Part shown: piece by piece, positions 18,662 to 24,254 of the stretch
Layout: each line of letters starts with the position of its first letter
Position numbering within the stretch: position 1 is the first letter of the stretch
Assembly (NCBI GenBank): GCA_017467275.1
Contig: JAFTSN010000001.1
Location: forward strand, 124,001 to 188,000
Source: Clostridia bacterium
Lineage (GTDB): Bacteria; Bacillota; Clostridia; Christensenellales; Borkfalkiaceae
Direction: 5' to 3'
Length of the DNA: 64,000 nt
Translations under genes and position numbers: made by a program
Notes under the pieces: model-generated
Seen by the model: only the letters and a program-made list of their open reading frames with translations
Told to the model about the DNA's origin: nothing
The model's database searches: none

Positions 18662-19786
18662 TTATTCCTCAGTCGACTCCGAGCTCTCCTCGCTCTCCGC
18701 GTACTCTTCCTCGTATTCCTCTTCCGTCACCAGAAGATTGAGCTTCTCTGCCGCCGAAGCGCTCTTCACATCGATCTTCCAACCCGTGAGACGCGCCGCA
18801 AGGCGAGCGTTCTGCCCGTCGCGACCGATTGCAAGAGAAAGCTTGTCGTCGGGAACGACCGCAATCGCCGTGCGTTCGCCCGTTTCCGTGACGGAGATGA
18901 CCGTTGCGGGAGAAAGCGCCTTTGCGATAAACTCAAGCGGATTCTCGCTCCAAAGGATAATATCGATCTTTTCTCCGCCGAGTTCCTCGACGACGGCATT
19001 CACGCGCGAGCCTCTGTTGCCAACGCAAGCGCCGACTGCGTCCACTCTCTCGTCGAGCGAGCAGATTGCCATTTTCGTTCTGTGACCCGCTTCACGGGAC
19101 ACCGCCTTGATCTCCACAAGCCCCTGCTTGACCTCGGGCACCTGCTCCTCGAAGAGCTTTCTCACAAGCCCGGGTGCGGCGCGCGAAACGAGGATCTGGG
19201 AATTCTTACCGCTGTTTTTAACGCGGCGCACGAACACCTTGAGTTTGTCGCCCGCGAAATATTTTTCATTGGGAGTCTGATCCTGCGGAAGCATGACGCC
19301 CTCGATCTTCTTTTCGCTCAGTTCCACGTATACGTTCTTTTCGTCCGTCTTGCGGATTGTGCCCTCCATGAGCTCTCCCTCCTTATCGGAGAACGCCGAG
19401 AACGTGCTGTCACGCTCCAATTCGTGCAGCTTTTGCAAGATGACCTGCTTCGCCGTCTGTGCAGCAATACGTCCGAAATCCTTGGTGGGAACGAAGCTTC
19501 TGACGATCTCGTCACCCTCTTTATAGGAGGGATCGATCTCCTGTGCGTCCTCAACGGAAATTTCCTTGTCTCTGTCGACGACCTCGGCGACCACGCGGCG
19601 AACAGCCTTAAAACGGATGGTGCCCTTTTCGGGATCGAGCTCGACGAATACTTCCGCGCCGCCCTCGTACTGCTTCTTATAAGCGGACGTGAGCGCGTTC
19701 TTTAAGGTTTCGAGAAACACCTCTTCGCTGATACCCTTTTCCTTGACCAGATCGGCAAGCGCCGCAAAAAACTCCTTGTTTTCCAT
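18662..19786 (-). CDS. nusA: transcription termination/antitermination factor NusA
   Basis: NusA binds RNA polymerase and nascent RNA to control pausing, termination and antitermination. The 374-residue protein has an N-terminal RNA-polymerase-binding domain, an S1 domain (near 135-200, MEGTIRKTDEKNVYVEL) and two KH domains, including VGACVGNRGSRV and LAIGRDGQNARLAARLTGW. The tail is short and acidic (EEEYEEEYAESEES). There is no C-terminal repeat domain as in E. coli, which is normal for Gram-positive bacteria. It lies between rimP and ylxR. Confidence 0.96.
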   Translation of the reverse strand: MENKEFFAALADLVKEKGISEEVFLETLKNALTSAYKKQYEGGAEVFVELDPEKGTIRFKAVRRVVAEVVDRDKEISVEDAQEIDPSYKEGDEIVRSFVPTKDFGRIAAQTAKQVILQKLHELERDSTFSAFSDKEGELMEGTIRKTDEKNVYVELSEKKIEGVMLPQDQTPNEKYFAGDKLKVFVRRVKNSGKNSQILVSRAAPGLVRKLFEEQVPEVKQGLVEIKAVSREAGHRTKMAICSLDERVDAVGACVGNRGSRVNAVVEELGGEKIDIILWSENPLEFIAKALSPATVISVTETGERTAIAVVPDDKLSLAIGRDGQNARLAARLTGWKIDVKSASAAEKLNLLVTEEEYEEEYAESEESSESTEE

Positions 19787-19831: not shown

Positions 19832-20296
19832 TTATTCGTCGAACACGATCGCCACACTGACCTTTGCGATCTTGCTCTGCTCGATCTTGAATTCCTCGCC
19901 GTTTTCCTCGAAGAACACGCAATTCCCGTCGTAGCCTTTGAGCGTGGCTTCCAAATACTTTTTCCCTTTCATGGGCGCGAACAGCTTAATCTCCATTCTT
20001 TCCCCCAAGTGCCGCTCGAAATCGCGGGCGGTCTTTAAGGGACGGTCGAGCCCCGGGCTCGAAACGTTTAAGGTGTAAGGTGCGCCGAAGGTCGGGTCGA
20101 GCGCGTCGAGCGGCTCGTCGATCGCGCGGTGGAATTTTTCGCAGGTGTCGAGATCGACGCCACCGTCGGTGTCGATATACACCGTCAAAGCAGGTGTGTG
20201 CCCCTGCTTAAATTCGATTTCCACGAGCTCAATATTCATTTCGTCAGCAATCGGCTGCAAGACTTCCTGTATTTCCGATATGGGTTTGATTTTCAT
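19832..20296 (-). CDS. rimP: ribosome maturation factor RimP
   Basis: RimP supports 30S subunit maturation. The 154-residue protein is of normal length and shows MNIELVEIEFKQG, a DTDGGVDLDTCEKFHR segment and the strongly conserved LNVSSPGLDRPLKTARDF, followed by the C-terminal SH3-like half. It is the first gene of the nusA-infB operon, 35 bases before nusA's ribosome-binding region, and is preceded by a leader with a perfect 12-bp hairpin and a clear promoter. Confidence 0.94.
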   Translation of the reverse strand: MKIKPISEIQEVLQPIADEMNIELVEIEFKQGHTPALTVYIDTDGGVDLDTCEKFHRAIDEPLDALDPTFGAPYTLNVSSPGLDRPLKTARDFERHLGERMEIKLFAPMKGKKYLEATLKGYDGNCVFFEENGEEFKIEQSKIAKVSVAIVFDE

Positions 20297-20445: not shown

Positions 20446-21567
20446 TCAAAGAAGCCCTTCTTCGCGCAAATCTTCGTAGAGCGCTTTTTGAATCTCGGCG
20501 AATTTACCATTGGTTTCGGTCGGTCCCGCGTGGAGGTGCCGCCCGATCACAACAGAAATTTTATTCACGGGATCGACCATGATATCCGAGCCCGCTGCGC
20601 CCGTCCATCCGTATTCACCCGCAGGCAAGCCCCAAGCGCTATCCTTGAGACGAACGCGCACGCCGAGCCCGTAGGCGTAGTCGTCGCCCAAGACCCGCGT
20701 GATCGCATTATCGGGCGTTAAAAGCTTATATTGCGGCTCTCGGATCAAAGCAAGCGTTTCCTCGCCGATGATCCGTTTTCCGTTCTCCCCCACACCGCCT
20801 TGCGCGAGCGCGCAGGCAAAGCGGGACATTCCGTCCACACCGCCGACAAGCCCTGCGCCGCCGCTATCGTAATTCTCGCCGAGAAAGAGCTTGACGTGCG
20901 GCTCACATTCGCAGTAGGAGTCCCCTCTATAGCTATACATCTGCGTTATGCCCCGATACTTATGAAAGCCGAGATCGGTAATACCGAGCGGCGCAAAAAT
21001 ACGCTCCTCCATATACTCGGAAAAACGCCTCCCGCTTACAACCTCCACCACTGCGGCGAGGACGTCGAGACAGACGCTGTATTCATAGCGAGTGCTCGGC
21101 TCGAATTTAAGGGGCAGACCCGCAAATGCGTTCGCGAGCTCCACCGTGCCCGCCTTGCCGCCCGAGCGCTCCACAATATCGCGGATATGAGGGGTTACAA
21201 TCATATCGTAAGAGAGTCCGCCCGACATGGTGAACAGATCGTGTACGGTCATCTTGTTTTTCGTCGGCTTTTTATTCCCCTCCCCGTCCAAAAGAAAGGT
21301 GTTTTTATATTCGGGAAGATACTTCGAGACCTCGTCGCTCAATTTAAGCTTTCCCTCGCCGATAAGCTGCAAAGCGCAAACGGCAGTGAACACTTTCGTA
21401 CAGGAATATAAGTACAGCCGTTCCTTTCCCGTCGCCTCAAACTCTCCGCTCTTATAATAGCGGAAAAGCCGCTCGCTTCCCTTTGTCAAAATCACATCGA
21501 GATAGGGCTCTTTCTTGCTTTCGATAAGCTCGTTAATACACTTCTTCGTTCTTTCGCCTCTGATCAT
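20446..21567 (-). CDS. serine hydrolase of the beta-lactamase/class C PBP fold
   Basis: The 373-residue protein has the catalytic SxxK motif SCTK at residues 55-58, the Tyr region RYEYSVCLDVL near 160, and a later GLGVRVRLKDSAWGLPAG...GWTGAAGSD segment like the third motif of class C enzymes. No signal peptide is visible, so it is probably a cytoplasmic esterase or peptidase rather than a resistance beta-lactamase. It lies between rimP and the PolC-like gene, where the polC gene would normally continue. It has its own promoter. The substrate cannot be told from sequence. Confidence 0.82.
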   Translation of the reverse strand: MIRGERTKKCINELIESKKEPYLDVILTKGSERLFRYYKSGEFEATGKERLYLYSCTKVFTAVCALQLIGEGKLKLSDEVSKYLPEYKNTFLLDGEGNKKPTKNKMTVHDLFTMSGGLSYDMIVTPHIRDIVERSGGKAGTVELANAFAGLPLKFEPSTRYEYSVCLDVLAAVVEVVSGRRFSEYMEERIFAPLGITDLGFHKYRGITQMYSYRGDSYCECEPHVKLFLGENYDSGGAGLVGGVDGMSRFACALAQGGVGENGKRIIGEETLALIREPQYKLLTPDNAITRVLGDDYAYGLGVRVRLKDSAWGLPAGEYGWTGAAGSDIMVDPVNKISVVIGRHLHAGPTETNGKFAEIQKALYEDLREEGLL

Positions 21568-21664: not shown

Positions 21665-23200
21665 TTAAAGTCTGCCCTTCGCCTTTATCAGCTCGATAAA
21701 GATTTTCGCCGTCGTGAGCGCGTCGTCAAACGCGCGATGATGATTGAACGTGAAACCATAGTGATCGGCGATCGTGTTAAGCTTGTAATTCGCGAGCTGT
21801 CCGCGCAAAATCTCCTGCGCGAGATTGAGCGTGTCGAGCGTCGTGTGCTCGAAGAAGAAACGACACTCCTCACCGTAGTATTTCACGAAACGGAAGTCAA
21901 ATTGCACGTTGTGCCCGACAAGATACGCCCCGTCCGCAAATTTATAGAAATCGGCAAGCACCTTATCCACCGTGGGCGCACCGATCAGGTCCTCGTCGCG
22001 GATTCCCGTCAACTCCACAATTTCTGGGGAAAGTCGGTCGGGACAGGCGACGAAAGAGGAGAATTTCTCCGTGACCGTTCCGTTCACGATCTTCACGGCA
22101 CCCAGCTCGATAATGCGGTCCATTTTGCCCATAGCAGGCTGGTTATTCAGCCCCGTTGTCTCGAGGTCAAACACAACGAAAACATTGTTTTTCAGCTCAT
22201 CGGGCTTACTCAGATCGTCGAAAAAGCCCGCTTGCGTATAGTCCTCATAAGGCTCGGGGAAGACCACGTGATAGGCATTCGGAACAGGTCTGCCCTCCCT
22301 CTTTTCGGGAACAAAGCCCTCGGGCGGCGTACCGAAATTAATCTTCTTTGCCGTGTAGGAAAGATTGCCGTTAAACTCCTCGTTGGCACCGCTTAAAACC
22401 ACCCAATCCCCCGTTTTCAGCTCCCGTATCCGTTCAACGGTCGCCTTTTTAGGGAAATAGGAAACACGAATGGTCCCCGTCCCGTCCGAAAGCGTAATCG
22501 TATAATACGCCTTGCCCTTTTTAGACTCGCGCTCTTGAATAAAACCGATTGCGCCGCAGAGGGTCAGATCGTCCTCCTTTTCGTTCACGTCAGCGATATA
22601 TTTCGCAAATTTGGGCGTTTCGTCCACGCCGTCCAGCTTTTTAAAATTCACAATCGGGAAATAGCGAGCTCTTAACGCCTCTTCCTCCTCCACGATCGGC
22701 GCGTCGTTTAAAAGAGAATCGTCGCGTTCCTGTTCGACAATCCTTACGTTCCCGTAGAACGAGCCGCAATAAACCGTCTTTAAATAGGCGCTGACCTCGT
22801 CGAGAATCTTCCCCGAACCGAAAAGTTCCTGCTCGCCCGAGGCGACGTCAAAACAGAAGTTTGCGCCGCTGGAAAGCATCTCGATCTCGATATCCTCCTC
22901 CTTTAAAAACGCCGCAGCAGCAGGAAAACGGGCGGTCATGAAATCAAAAATACGCTTTCTCAATATCTCGGCGTCAGGCACGCGCTTGACAATCTTAAGC
23001 CGCGGAGAAAAAGCCGCGGGAAGATACTTTCCCGTGATCTGCTCCGCCTGCGTCGCTTCGGCAGACGTATACGCCTTATCCGTGATAAGGGTAAATTCCG
23101 CGCTCATAACCTTTCTTTCAACGGCAATCCCGCCAATAATCGCATTTTTGAGTCCGTCGAGGGCGCGTATTTCGTTTAAGTATTCCTGTGTTTTATTCAT
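21665..23200 (-). CDS. PolC-derived protein: N-terminal domain, OB fold and 3'-5' exonuclease, no polymerase
   Basis: The 511-residue protein looks like the front of a Gram-positive PolC replicase. It has an N-terminal region, an OB-fold segment at about 215-290 (CGAIGFIQERESKKGKAYY, GDWVVLSGANEEFNG) and a DEDDh exonuclease at about 335-505 with FDLETTGLN, VGHNVQFDFRFV and HHRAFDDALTT. The PHP domain, palm, fingers and C-terminal parts of PolC (normally about 1,400 residues) are absent. The locus, ispG upstream and rimP downstream, is where polC sits in many Firmicutes. I therefore read it as PolC cut down to a proofreading-type nuclease. The catalytic residues are intact, so it is probably functional and not a pseudogene. 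Another replicative polymerase must be encoded elsewhere. Confidence 0.85.
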   Translation of the reverse strand: MNKTQEYLNEIRALDGLKNAIIGGIAVERKVMSAEFTLITDKAYTSAEATQAEQITGKYLPAAFSPRLKIVKRVPDAEILRKRIFDFMTARFPAAAAFLKEEDIEIEMLSSGANFCFDVASGEQELFGSGKILDEVSAYLKTVYCGSFYGNVRIVEQERDDSLLNDAPIVEEEEALRARYFPIVNFKKLDGVDETPKFAKYIADVNEKEDDLTLCGAIGFIQERESKKGKAYYTITLSDGTGTIRVSYFPKKATVERIRELKTGDWVVLSGANEEFNGNLSYTAKKINFGTPPEGFVPEKREGRPVPNAYHVVFPEPYEDYTQAGFFDDLSKPDELKNNVFVVFDLETTGLNNQPAMGKMDRIIELGAVKIVNGTVTEKFSSFVACPDRLSPEIVELTGIRDEDLIGAPTVDKVLADFYKFADGAYLVGHNVQFDFRFVKYYGEECRFFFEHTTLDTLNLAQEILRGQLANYKLNTIADHYGFTFNHHRAFDDALTTAKIFIELIKAKGRL

Positions 23201-24254
23201 CTAAAAGCTTCCTTAATTGGAGGAAAAATTCCTCCTCCGCACACTCTGCGGACACCTTTTTAAAGGGCTGTCCCTTTTTAAACAGCACGCAAGAGCCGTC
23301 GCCGCCCGCAATACCGAGATCGGCGTCCTTTGCCTCGCCCGGTCCGTTGACCACACAGCCCATAACCGCCACCTTCGCCTTTTTCTTGTACGGACGAACA
23401 AATTCCGTCACCTTATCGGCGAGCGCCATGCTCTCCCAACGGCACCTGCCGCAGGTCGGACAGGCAACCACCTCCACGAATTCTTTTTCCAAACCGACGG
23501 CACGCAAAATGTTCTGCGCGGCATATACCTCTTTCACGGGATCATCGGTGAGCGAAACGCGAATGGTGTCGCCAATTCCTTTCAGTAAAAGGCTGCCGAT
23601 CCCGACCGCGCTTTTCACAATGCCCGCCTCCGTCGTTCCCGCCTCTGTCACCCCGACGTGCAGGGGATAATCCGAGCGCCGAGCAAGAAGCTCGTAAGCT
23701 TTCACTGTCAGCGAAACGTCGGACGCCTTGACGGAAATGACGATATCGTTCACCCCCTGTTTCTCAAGAAGGGCGACGTTATAGAGGGCGCTTTCAACGA
23801 GCGCCTCCGCACTTCTACCGTATTTTTCGAGAAAGTTTTTTTCGATACTGCCCGTATTCGCGCCCACGCGCACGGGAACTTTATGCGCCTTGATGCAGTC
23901 CGCAACGTAGGCAATCTCCCGTTCGCCGCCGATGTTCCCTGGGTTTATCCGAACCTTATCGGCGCCGCTCTCAATCGACATGACCGCAAGCCTAGGCGAA
24001 AAATGGATATCCGCGACAAGCGGCAGAGAAATCCGCTCCTTGACCGCTTTAATCGCAAGCGCGTCCGCTTCGTCTGAAACCGCCACGCGCACGATCTCAC
24101 ACCCCGCCCTTTCGAGCGCGGCAATCTGCGCGACCGTCTCCTCGATTTTGGCGGTCTTTTTCGTCGTCATGGATTGAATCTTAATAGGCGAGCCGCCGCC
24201 CACGAGCACGCCGCCGATATTCACGGTTTTCGTTGTCTTTCGCTGTGCATCCAC
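23193..24254 (-). CDS. ispG: 4-hydroxy-3-methylbut-2-en-1-yl diphosphate synthase
   Basis: IspG makes HMBPP in the MEP isoprenoid pathway using a 4Fe-4S cluster. The 353-residue protein begins with TKTVNIGGVLVGGGSPIKIQSM, has RVNPGNIGG-like KVRINPGNIGGER, and ends with the cluster motif CPTCGRC and GCVVNGPGEA. Length is normal. It overlaps the PolC-like gene by 8 bases and begins immediately after the nrdR stop, which preserves the ispG-polC neighbourhood. Confidence 0.95.
   Translation of the reverse strand: MDAQRKTTKTVNIGGVLVGGGSPIKIQSMTTKKTAKIEETVAQIAALERAGCEIVRVAVSDEADALAIKAVKERISLPLVADIHFSPRLAVMSIESGADKVRINPGNIGGEREIAYVADCIKAHKVPVRVGANTGSIEKNFLEKYGRSAEALVESALYNVALLEKQGVNDIVISVKASDVSLTVKAYELLARRSDYPLHVGVTEAGTTEAGIVKSAVGIGSLLLKGIGDTIRVSLTDDPVKEVYAAQNILRAVGLEKEFVEVVACPTCGRCRWESMALADKVTEFVRPYKKKAKVAVMGCVVNGPGEAKDADLGIAGGDGSCVLFKKGQPFKKVSAECAEEEFFLQLRKLLDE

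Follow-up and report, generated by a model that had tools for sequence, protein, structure and literature searches.

A PolC remnant with N-terminal, OB and exonuclease domains at the polC place in an order of Clostridia

Surveys of the bacterial C-family DNA polymerases describe three systems, and among the Clostridia they record exonuclease-less PolCs as well as some genomes with DnaE1 only (PMC3919608, PMC12926913). PolCs without the exonuclease insert make up 6% of the PolCs surveyed there and are found in Clostridia (PMC3919608). A contact between the N-terminal region of PolC and the clamp loader has been proposed (PMC3919608). The clamp motif of PolC is C-terminal in B. subtilis, QxxLF being the common motif of this kind (PMC12309361). 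In E. coli, a clamp motif located beside the catalytic domain of epsilon stabilises Pol III on the clamp (PMC3642679).

Here we describe a gene from a draft genome of the Clostridia in which the N-terminal domains, the OB fold and the DEDDh exonuclease of PolC form a protein of their own, referred to below as reduced PolC. The portions of PMC3919608 and PMC12926913 available to us, and the titles and abstracts retrieved by term searches, hold no mention that we could find of a PolC-derived stand-alone subunit made of N-terminal and exonuclease parts, which is not proof of novelty. We propose, with a probability of roughly 0.7, that this polC remnant now proofreads in trans for DnaE1, the sole replicase, as an epsilon-like subunit tethered to the clamp.

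The locus and its gene

The window, that is, the whole stretch of 64,000 nucleotides analyzed, is a portion of contig C13 of a draft genome of 1.55 Mb. The features of the locus are collected in Table 1. The gene is an intact open reading frame with an ATG start. A preliminary description had placed it between ispG and rimP, with a beta-lactamase-fold gene downstream, and had read its product as a PolC-like N-terminal region and OB fold joined to a complete DEDDh exonuclease, without PHP domain, polymerase core or C-terminal parts. Each of these observations is confirmed.

Table 1. Features of the reduced PolC locus, in window coordinates
Feature	Position	Strand	Evidence
nusA, downstream flank	18662..19786	-	ORF list; synteny
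rimP, downstream flank of the polC place	19832..20296	-	ORF list; synteny
Serine-hydrolase/beta-lactamase family gene between reduced PolC and rimP; outside the system	20446..21567	-	PF00144, 154 bits
Reduced PolC (N-terminal domains, OB fold, linker, DEDDh exonuclease), 511 aa	21665..23200	-	ORF, Pfam, NCBIfam, genus-wide search, profile comparison, tree
3'-5' exonuclease domain, residues 342-501; DEDDh = D345, E347, D435, H488, D493	21698..22177	-	PF00929 (RNase_T), 118 bits; catalytic alignment columns
Linker, residues 298-340, replacing the N-terminal half of the PHP domain	22181..22309	-	Alignment; hhalign against PolC PHP-N, probability 0.4
Beta-clamp-binding-type pentapeptide QAGFF, residues 323-327	22220..22234	-	Read from the translation; Qxx[LMIF][FL] pattern
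OB fold, residues 219-287	22340..22546	-	PF01336, 36.3 bits; hhalign against PolC OB, probability 99.1
PolC-type N-terminal region, residues 1-196	22613..23200	-	hhalign against PolC N-terminal profile, probability 97.7, E 2.3e-12; no single-sequence Pfam match
ispG, upstream flank of the polC place; overlaps reduced PolC by 8 bases	23193..24254	-	ORF list; synteny

The neighborhood recurs in related genomes. With flanks of roughly 1.5 kb, ispG adjoins the reduced gene directly upstream in all 30 loci of the genus (L002-L031, among them that of the window). It does so too in 10 of 10 loci from other families. The PF00144 gene is present between the reduced gene and rimP in 5 of the 30, that of the window included. 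rimP follows in seven of the ten loci from other families; in two of the other three, no rimP match appears over several kilobases of downstream sequence, and the third ends. Among eight full-length PolC loci of the order, the arrangement ispG-polC-rimP-nusA is complete in four, and ispG alone is present in two (L078, without rimP downstream, and L077, too short to judge); L079 and L080 have neither ispG nor rimP. The polC place is common to the reduced form and to PolC, but it is not universal for PolC.

The two NCBIfam models that score highest with the 511-residue protein are PolC models, at 160.8 bits (cut-off 873) and 149.3 bits (cut-off 1043). These scores are far under the cut-offs, which are set for full-length PolC. 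The sole model among the 25 listed to pass its cut-off is TIGR00573, a broad family of epsilon subunit exonucleases (92.1 bits against 71.5), and the DnaQ equivalogs NF004316 and TIGR01406 remain below theirs at 82.8 and 81.3 bits. Among solved structures, the best matches are to PolC exonucleases, namely 2p1j (E 1.4e-27) and that of the full-length PolC 9qpc (E 4.6e-17). No PHP or polymerase family is found among the Pfam matches of the protein, and no helicase family among the five Pfam matches of the search that included it. In the alignment, the protein stops after the exonuclease, so that the C-terminal clamp motif of PolC is absent.

A similar picture could arise from an incomplete draft in which polC is broken or wrongly assembled, and the window genome is 79% complete. 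However, all 37 searched genomes of the genus carry reduced PolC, the 36 other proteins being 58-68% identical to that of the window, and 128 of the 198 order genomes surveyed have the same gene with one architecture. An artefact is refuted by this recurrence, and we give it practically no weight. One same-genus copy, that of G020, is divided between two contigs.

Descent from PolC and distribution in the order

We set profile A2, built from 34 reduced proteins, against profile A3, built from 27 PolC N-terminal halves. The two align across 500 columns with a probability of 100 (E 5.7e-88). Compared by piece with hhalign, the exonuclease reaches a probability of 100 (E 5.6e-79), in addition to the values for the N-terminal region and the OB fold in Table 1, and six column-shuffled profiles used as controls for the N-terminal region all gave 0.0. 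The linker does not match the half of the PolC PHP domain that it replaces. The Pfam models of the PolC N-terminal region, NI and NII, match 16 and 14 of the 27 PolC halves, respectively, and the PHP domain PF02811 matches all 27; for the 34 reduced proteins, none of the three appears among the 25 of 27 families listed. By these measures, the PolC-like N-terminal region is real yet faint, and the relation is visible only when profile is set against profile.

The phylogeny points in the same direction. In a tree of 442 columns covering the N-terminal region, OB fold and exonuclease, with linker and PHP excluded, 21 reduced forms make up one clade (100/100). This clade shares a branch (94/94) with ten PolCs of its own order. 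The 17 PolCs of named records, whose hosts may include members of the order, lie apart from that branch. The placement within PolC that the preliminary description had anticipated is thus recovered from the long alignment. A tree of the exonuclease by itself (168 columns), in which small DEDDh proteins, DEDDh domains carried by helicases and E. coli DnaQ were included, was too short to place the reduced forms, long branches falling amid them, and it was set aside. The host polymerase was also placed: in a DnaE tree of 57 genomes, built by a quick method, a single branch (SH-aLRT 100; stem near 0.35) sets the DnaE of the 24 reduced-form hosts apart amid that of PolC-bearing relatives. The simplest history compatible with these trees is one loss of the polymerase. 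On the combined profile and tree evidence, the 511-residue gene is PolC by descent, minus the PHP domain, the polymerase core and the C-terminus.

We surveyed 198 genomes of the order with the PolC model, a reduced-form profile (A1) and the palm model PF07733; 14 genomes were searched more closely. The set is an even sample of a larger group, with 197 genomes that are at least 90% complete and the window's own. PolC is present in 69 genomes (66 above the cut-off and three with lower-scoring fragments, G124, G091 and G080), the reduced form in 128, both in none and neither in one. By family, 15 have the reduced form and 12 have PolC, uniformly except for G071. Searches with the PolC model and PF07733 found no PolC in the 128 genomes with the reduced form, which are mostly drafts. 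The suggestion made in the preliminary description, that the lineage lost the PolC polymerase and kept its nuclease, is supported by this mutual exclusion and by the grouping with PolCs of the same order.

The window genome has one C-family polymerase match with PF07733, which is a DnaE in a frame of 1216 aa. The 129 PolC-less genomes have one PF07733 match each, apart from G093, G107, G108, G193 and G234, which have two, and G073 and G143, which have none. One same-genus genome, contaminated at 6%, has a partial PF07733 match in a 271-aa frame besides its first (G016:C22:18545-18901, L192).

The reduced matches of the 128 genomes are mostly in frames of 489-759 aa. That of G055 is cut at a contig end, and those of G227, G114 and G191 each contain one stop. 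In families f16 and f19 and in part of f29, the matches to the reduced profile stop short within the exonuclease, and the closer search of G051 revealed a reduced copy without DEDDh. The single genome of the 198 with neither form, G071, belongs to the PolC-bearing family f11; its best match is a DEDDh protein of 301 aa (L239), and it represents either an independent loss or a draft gap. In the same family, G132, G144, G156, G168 and G188 have PolC without a match to profile A1 at E 1e-20, apparently an exonuclease-less PolC. The named relatives of the reduced form are mostly 'uncultured Clostridia' assemblies, together with Candidatus Coproplasma stercoripullorum, whose genus we take to be placed in Christensenellales by GTDB.

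We also searched the class as a whole, using 393 genomes of which 369 lie outside the order, at a threshold of E 1e-45, which diverged reduced forms could escape. No reduced form outside the order was found among the matches listed; each is in a frame of 986-1630 aa and covers the exonuclease end of the profile. The opposite direction of change, in which the stand-alone form is ancestral and PolC a later fusion of it to a polymerase, draws on the mere existence of both forms and nothing more. It is at odds with the nesting of host DnaE among PolC-bearing lineages, with the grouping of reduced forms with the PolCs of their own order and with the long frames of all the outside matches listed, and we regard it as highly improbable.

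A clamp-type motif in the linker and copies without the nuclease

We aligned 120 distinct reduced proteins (30 same-genus, 34 from named records and 56 from other genomes of the order), and all five DEDDh residues are present in 107 of them. The pattern Qxx[LMIF][FL] occurs in the linker of 103 of these 107 DEDDh-intact copies. Shuffled linkers gave a mean of 2.87 and a maximum of 8 (200 rounds), and nine other 43-column windows of the same proteins gave 0-7, both being controls that leave the relatedness among copies in place. The same pattern was found in the PHP half of none of 27 PolCs. The distance from the motif glutamine to the first catalytic aspartate is 19-26 residues (22-23 in 89 of 103), and Q323 and F327 are nearly invariant amid variable linker residues. 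Four DEDDh-intact copies, including that of G041, have no such motif. In the PolCs of the order, the clamp motif lies within the last 10 residues in all eight that were checked.

The linker motif is conserved and of the clamp-binding type, and it is likely a clamp-docking element, although a match to so short a pattern is no proof of binding. Its arrangement looks like a convergent counterpart of that in E. coli epsilon. The motif, the clade-wide extent of the reduced form and the lineages with a dead exonuclease all go beyond the preliminary description.

The other 13 of the 120 distinct copies are without DEDDh (L070, L229-L233, L235-L238, L241, L244 and L245). They are full length and come from families f16, f19 and f29; 13 of 120 is not a rate, as most such genomes were chosen for odd matches and some short-match f19 genomes were left out. 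The strict motif is present in none of the 13, and a relaxed clamp-type form in nine (shuffles: mean 2.5, maximum 7). Because such copies persist, the protein can outlive its nuclease, and a structural role is likely too. Judging from these sequences, proofreading is neither the sole nor the universal use of reduced PolC, and in some lineages a structural or tethering role probably exists beside it.

A stronger version of this idea makes the protein mainly a structural part of the replisome, a clamp and clamp-loader adaptor for DnaE1 in which the nuclease is secondary. The persistence of full-length DEDDh-less copies in three families, the relaxed motif in most of them and the clamp-loader contact proposed for the PolC N-terminal region (PMC3919608) are in line with such a role. 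However, DEDDh is complete in the large majority of copies, and the invariant columns of the reduced form are nearly all within the exonuclease, and we regard a mainly structural protein as quite improbable.

The host polymerase and the proposed mechanism

The PHP metal residues, defined by the motif in PMC12926913, are intact in 24 of 24 host DnaE proteins. All 24 likewise keep the palm aspartates, and 19 of them have a clamp motif that fits the pattern searched. The idea that reduced PolC is needed because the DnaE PHP domain is dead was rejected on these grounds; a host DnaE with an intact PHP domain may proofread alone. The DnaE of the clade (e.g., L081) also has inserts at reference residues ~475-507 and 1019-1022 that are mostly missing from PolC-bearing relatives.

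Many clamp-binding proteins are repair enzymes. The nuclease of reduced PolC could thus serve repair or nucleic-acid clean-up at the clamp and not replicative proofreading, and both the intact PHP domain of DnaE and the loss of DEDDh in 13 copies would fit such a use. Conversely, the protein has retained the N-terminal and OB parts of PolC and the polC place, and it replaces PolC strictly, both forms occurring together in 0 of 198 genomes. We consider a repair function unlikely in view of these features.

Other DEDDh proteins of the hosts were also searched. With PF00929 at E 1e-5 in 18 reduced-form genomes, reduced PolC is the only match in five (G062, G138, G150, G049 and G059), three of which are rated 100% complete at 0.9-1.2 Mb. 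Twelve have additional matches, and in G147, where DEDDh is lost, only another protein matches. The window genome has two other DEDDh proteins. One is an 899-aa UvrD-type helicase with a DEDDh exonuclease inserted at 531-689 (G000:C9:22326-22826; L189:1715-4411); an assignment of this helicase-borne exonuclease to DinG was rejected, the helicase being of the UvrD type. The second is a 323-aa protein with an N-terminal exonuclease, a possible replicative epsilon. In G038, a DEDDh exonuclease of 194 aa (G038:C8:74585-75091, L182) is 51% identical to residues 337-506 of the window protein, and reduced PolC is also present.

The proofreading role that we favor would have arisen as follows. The ancestor of a large clade of uncultured gut bacteria within one order of Clostridia would have lost the PolC polymerase, leaving DnaE1 as the only replicase. 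What remained of PolC at the locus would be its N-terminal domains, its OB fold and its exonuclease. The PHP domain, in both its halves, would have been lost together with all that follows it, including the C-terminal clamp motif of PolC, and a new clamp-type motif would have arisen in the linker just ahead of the exonuclease. Reduced PolC is predicted to dock on the beta clamp via Qxx(L/F)F; its tau-like N-terminal domains may contact the clamp loader, and its OB fold may bind DNA. The DEDDh 3'-5' exonuclease would thereby be presented to the primer end made by DnaE1, working like the E. coli epsilon subunit and descending from PolC. We infer the partnership with a DnaE-type replicase, which the clamp-type motif and the single-DnaE background strengthen.

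More tentatively, and at slightly less than even odds, the arrangement could be regarded as a third kind of Pol III core, composed of DnaE1 and a subunit of PolC descent with a tether to the clamp and perhaps also to the clamp loader. Such a subunit would proofread in trans in most lineages and be purely structural in some, and an epsilon-like subunit would have been invented independently by stripping a rival polymerase.

Comparison with known systems

The locus offers a clean case in which a replicative polymerase was lost and its nuclease kept and, in our reading, re-wired, within a large bacterial clade. Since sister families keep PolC, the order is a natural experiment on the role of PolC. 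It could be used to ask whether PolC shapes strand-biased gene order and purine asymmetry, and how work is divided in the PolC plus DnaE1 system, a question described as in need of experiment (PMC3919608).

Several known systems show partial resemblance. Exonuclease-less PolCs, here apparently those of the five f11 genomes, are also PolCs of Clostridia minus one function; they are the opposite case, with the polymerase kept and the exonuclease lost. In bacteria without Pol I, stand-alone Pol I-type 5'-3' exonucleases likewise represent a nuclease surviving alone after loss of its polymerase, but they belong to a FEN-like family with another function (PMC12926913). DinG-type exonuclease-helicases have the DEDDh domain in common with the reduced form, which lacks the helicase part; DinG models match the window protein only through their exonuclease part.

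The closest relative is PolC, the C-family polymerase of Firmicutes, which the reduced form resembles in its N-terminal domains, OB fold, DEDDh exonuclease and place beside ispG. In contrast to PolC, the reduced form has no PHP domain, polymerase core or C-terminal clamp motif, and it has a new clamp-type motif in the linker between OB fold and exonuclease. Because its defining parts are absent, it is not a PolC polymerase.

The closest counterpart in function would be DnaQ/epsilon of E. coli Pol III, also a separate DEDDh protein beside a DnaE-only replicase, with a clamp-type motif adjoining its catalytic domain (PMC3642679). Unlike epsilon, the reduced form is PolC-derived and retains the PolC N-terminal and OB parts, its motif stands before and not after the exonuclease, and its partnership with DnaE is a prediction. 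Its closest sequence relatives are the PolC models (160.8 and 149.3 bits) and not DnaQ. By closest kinship, the reduced form is thus not a DnaQ, but it probably works in an epsilon-like manner.
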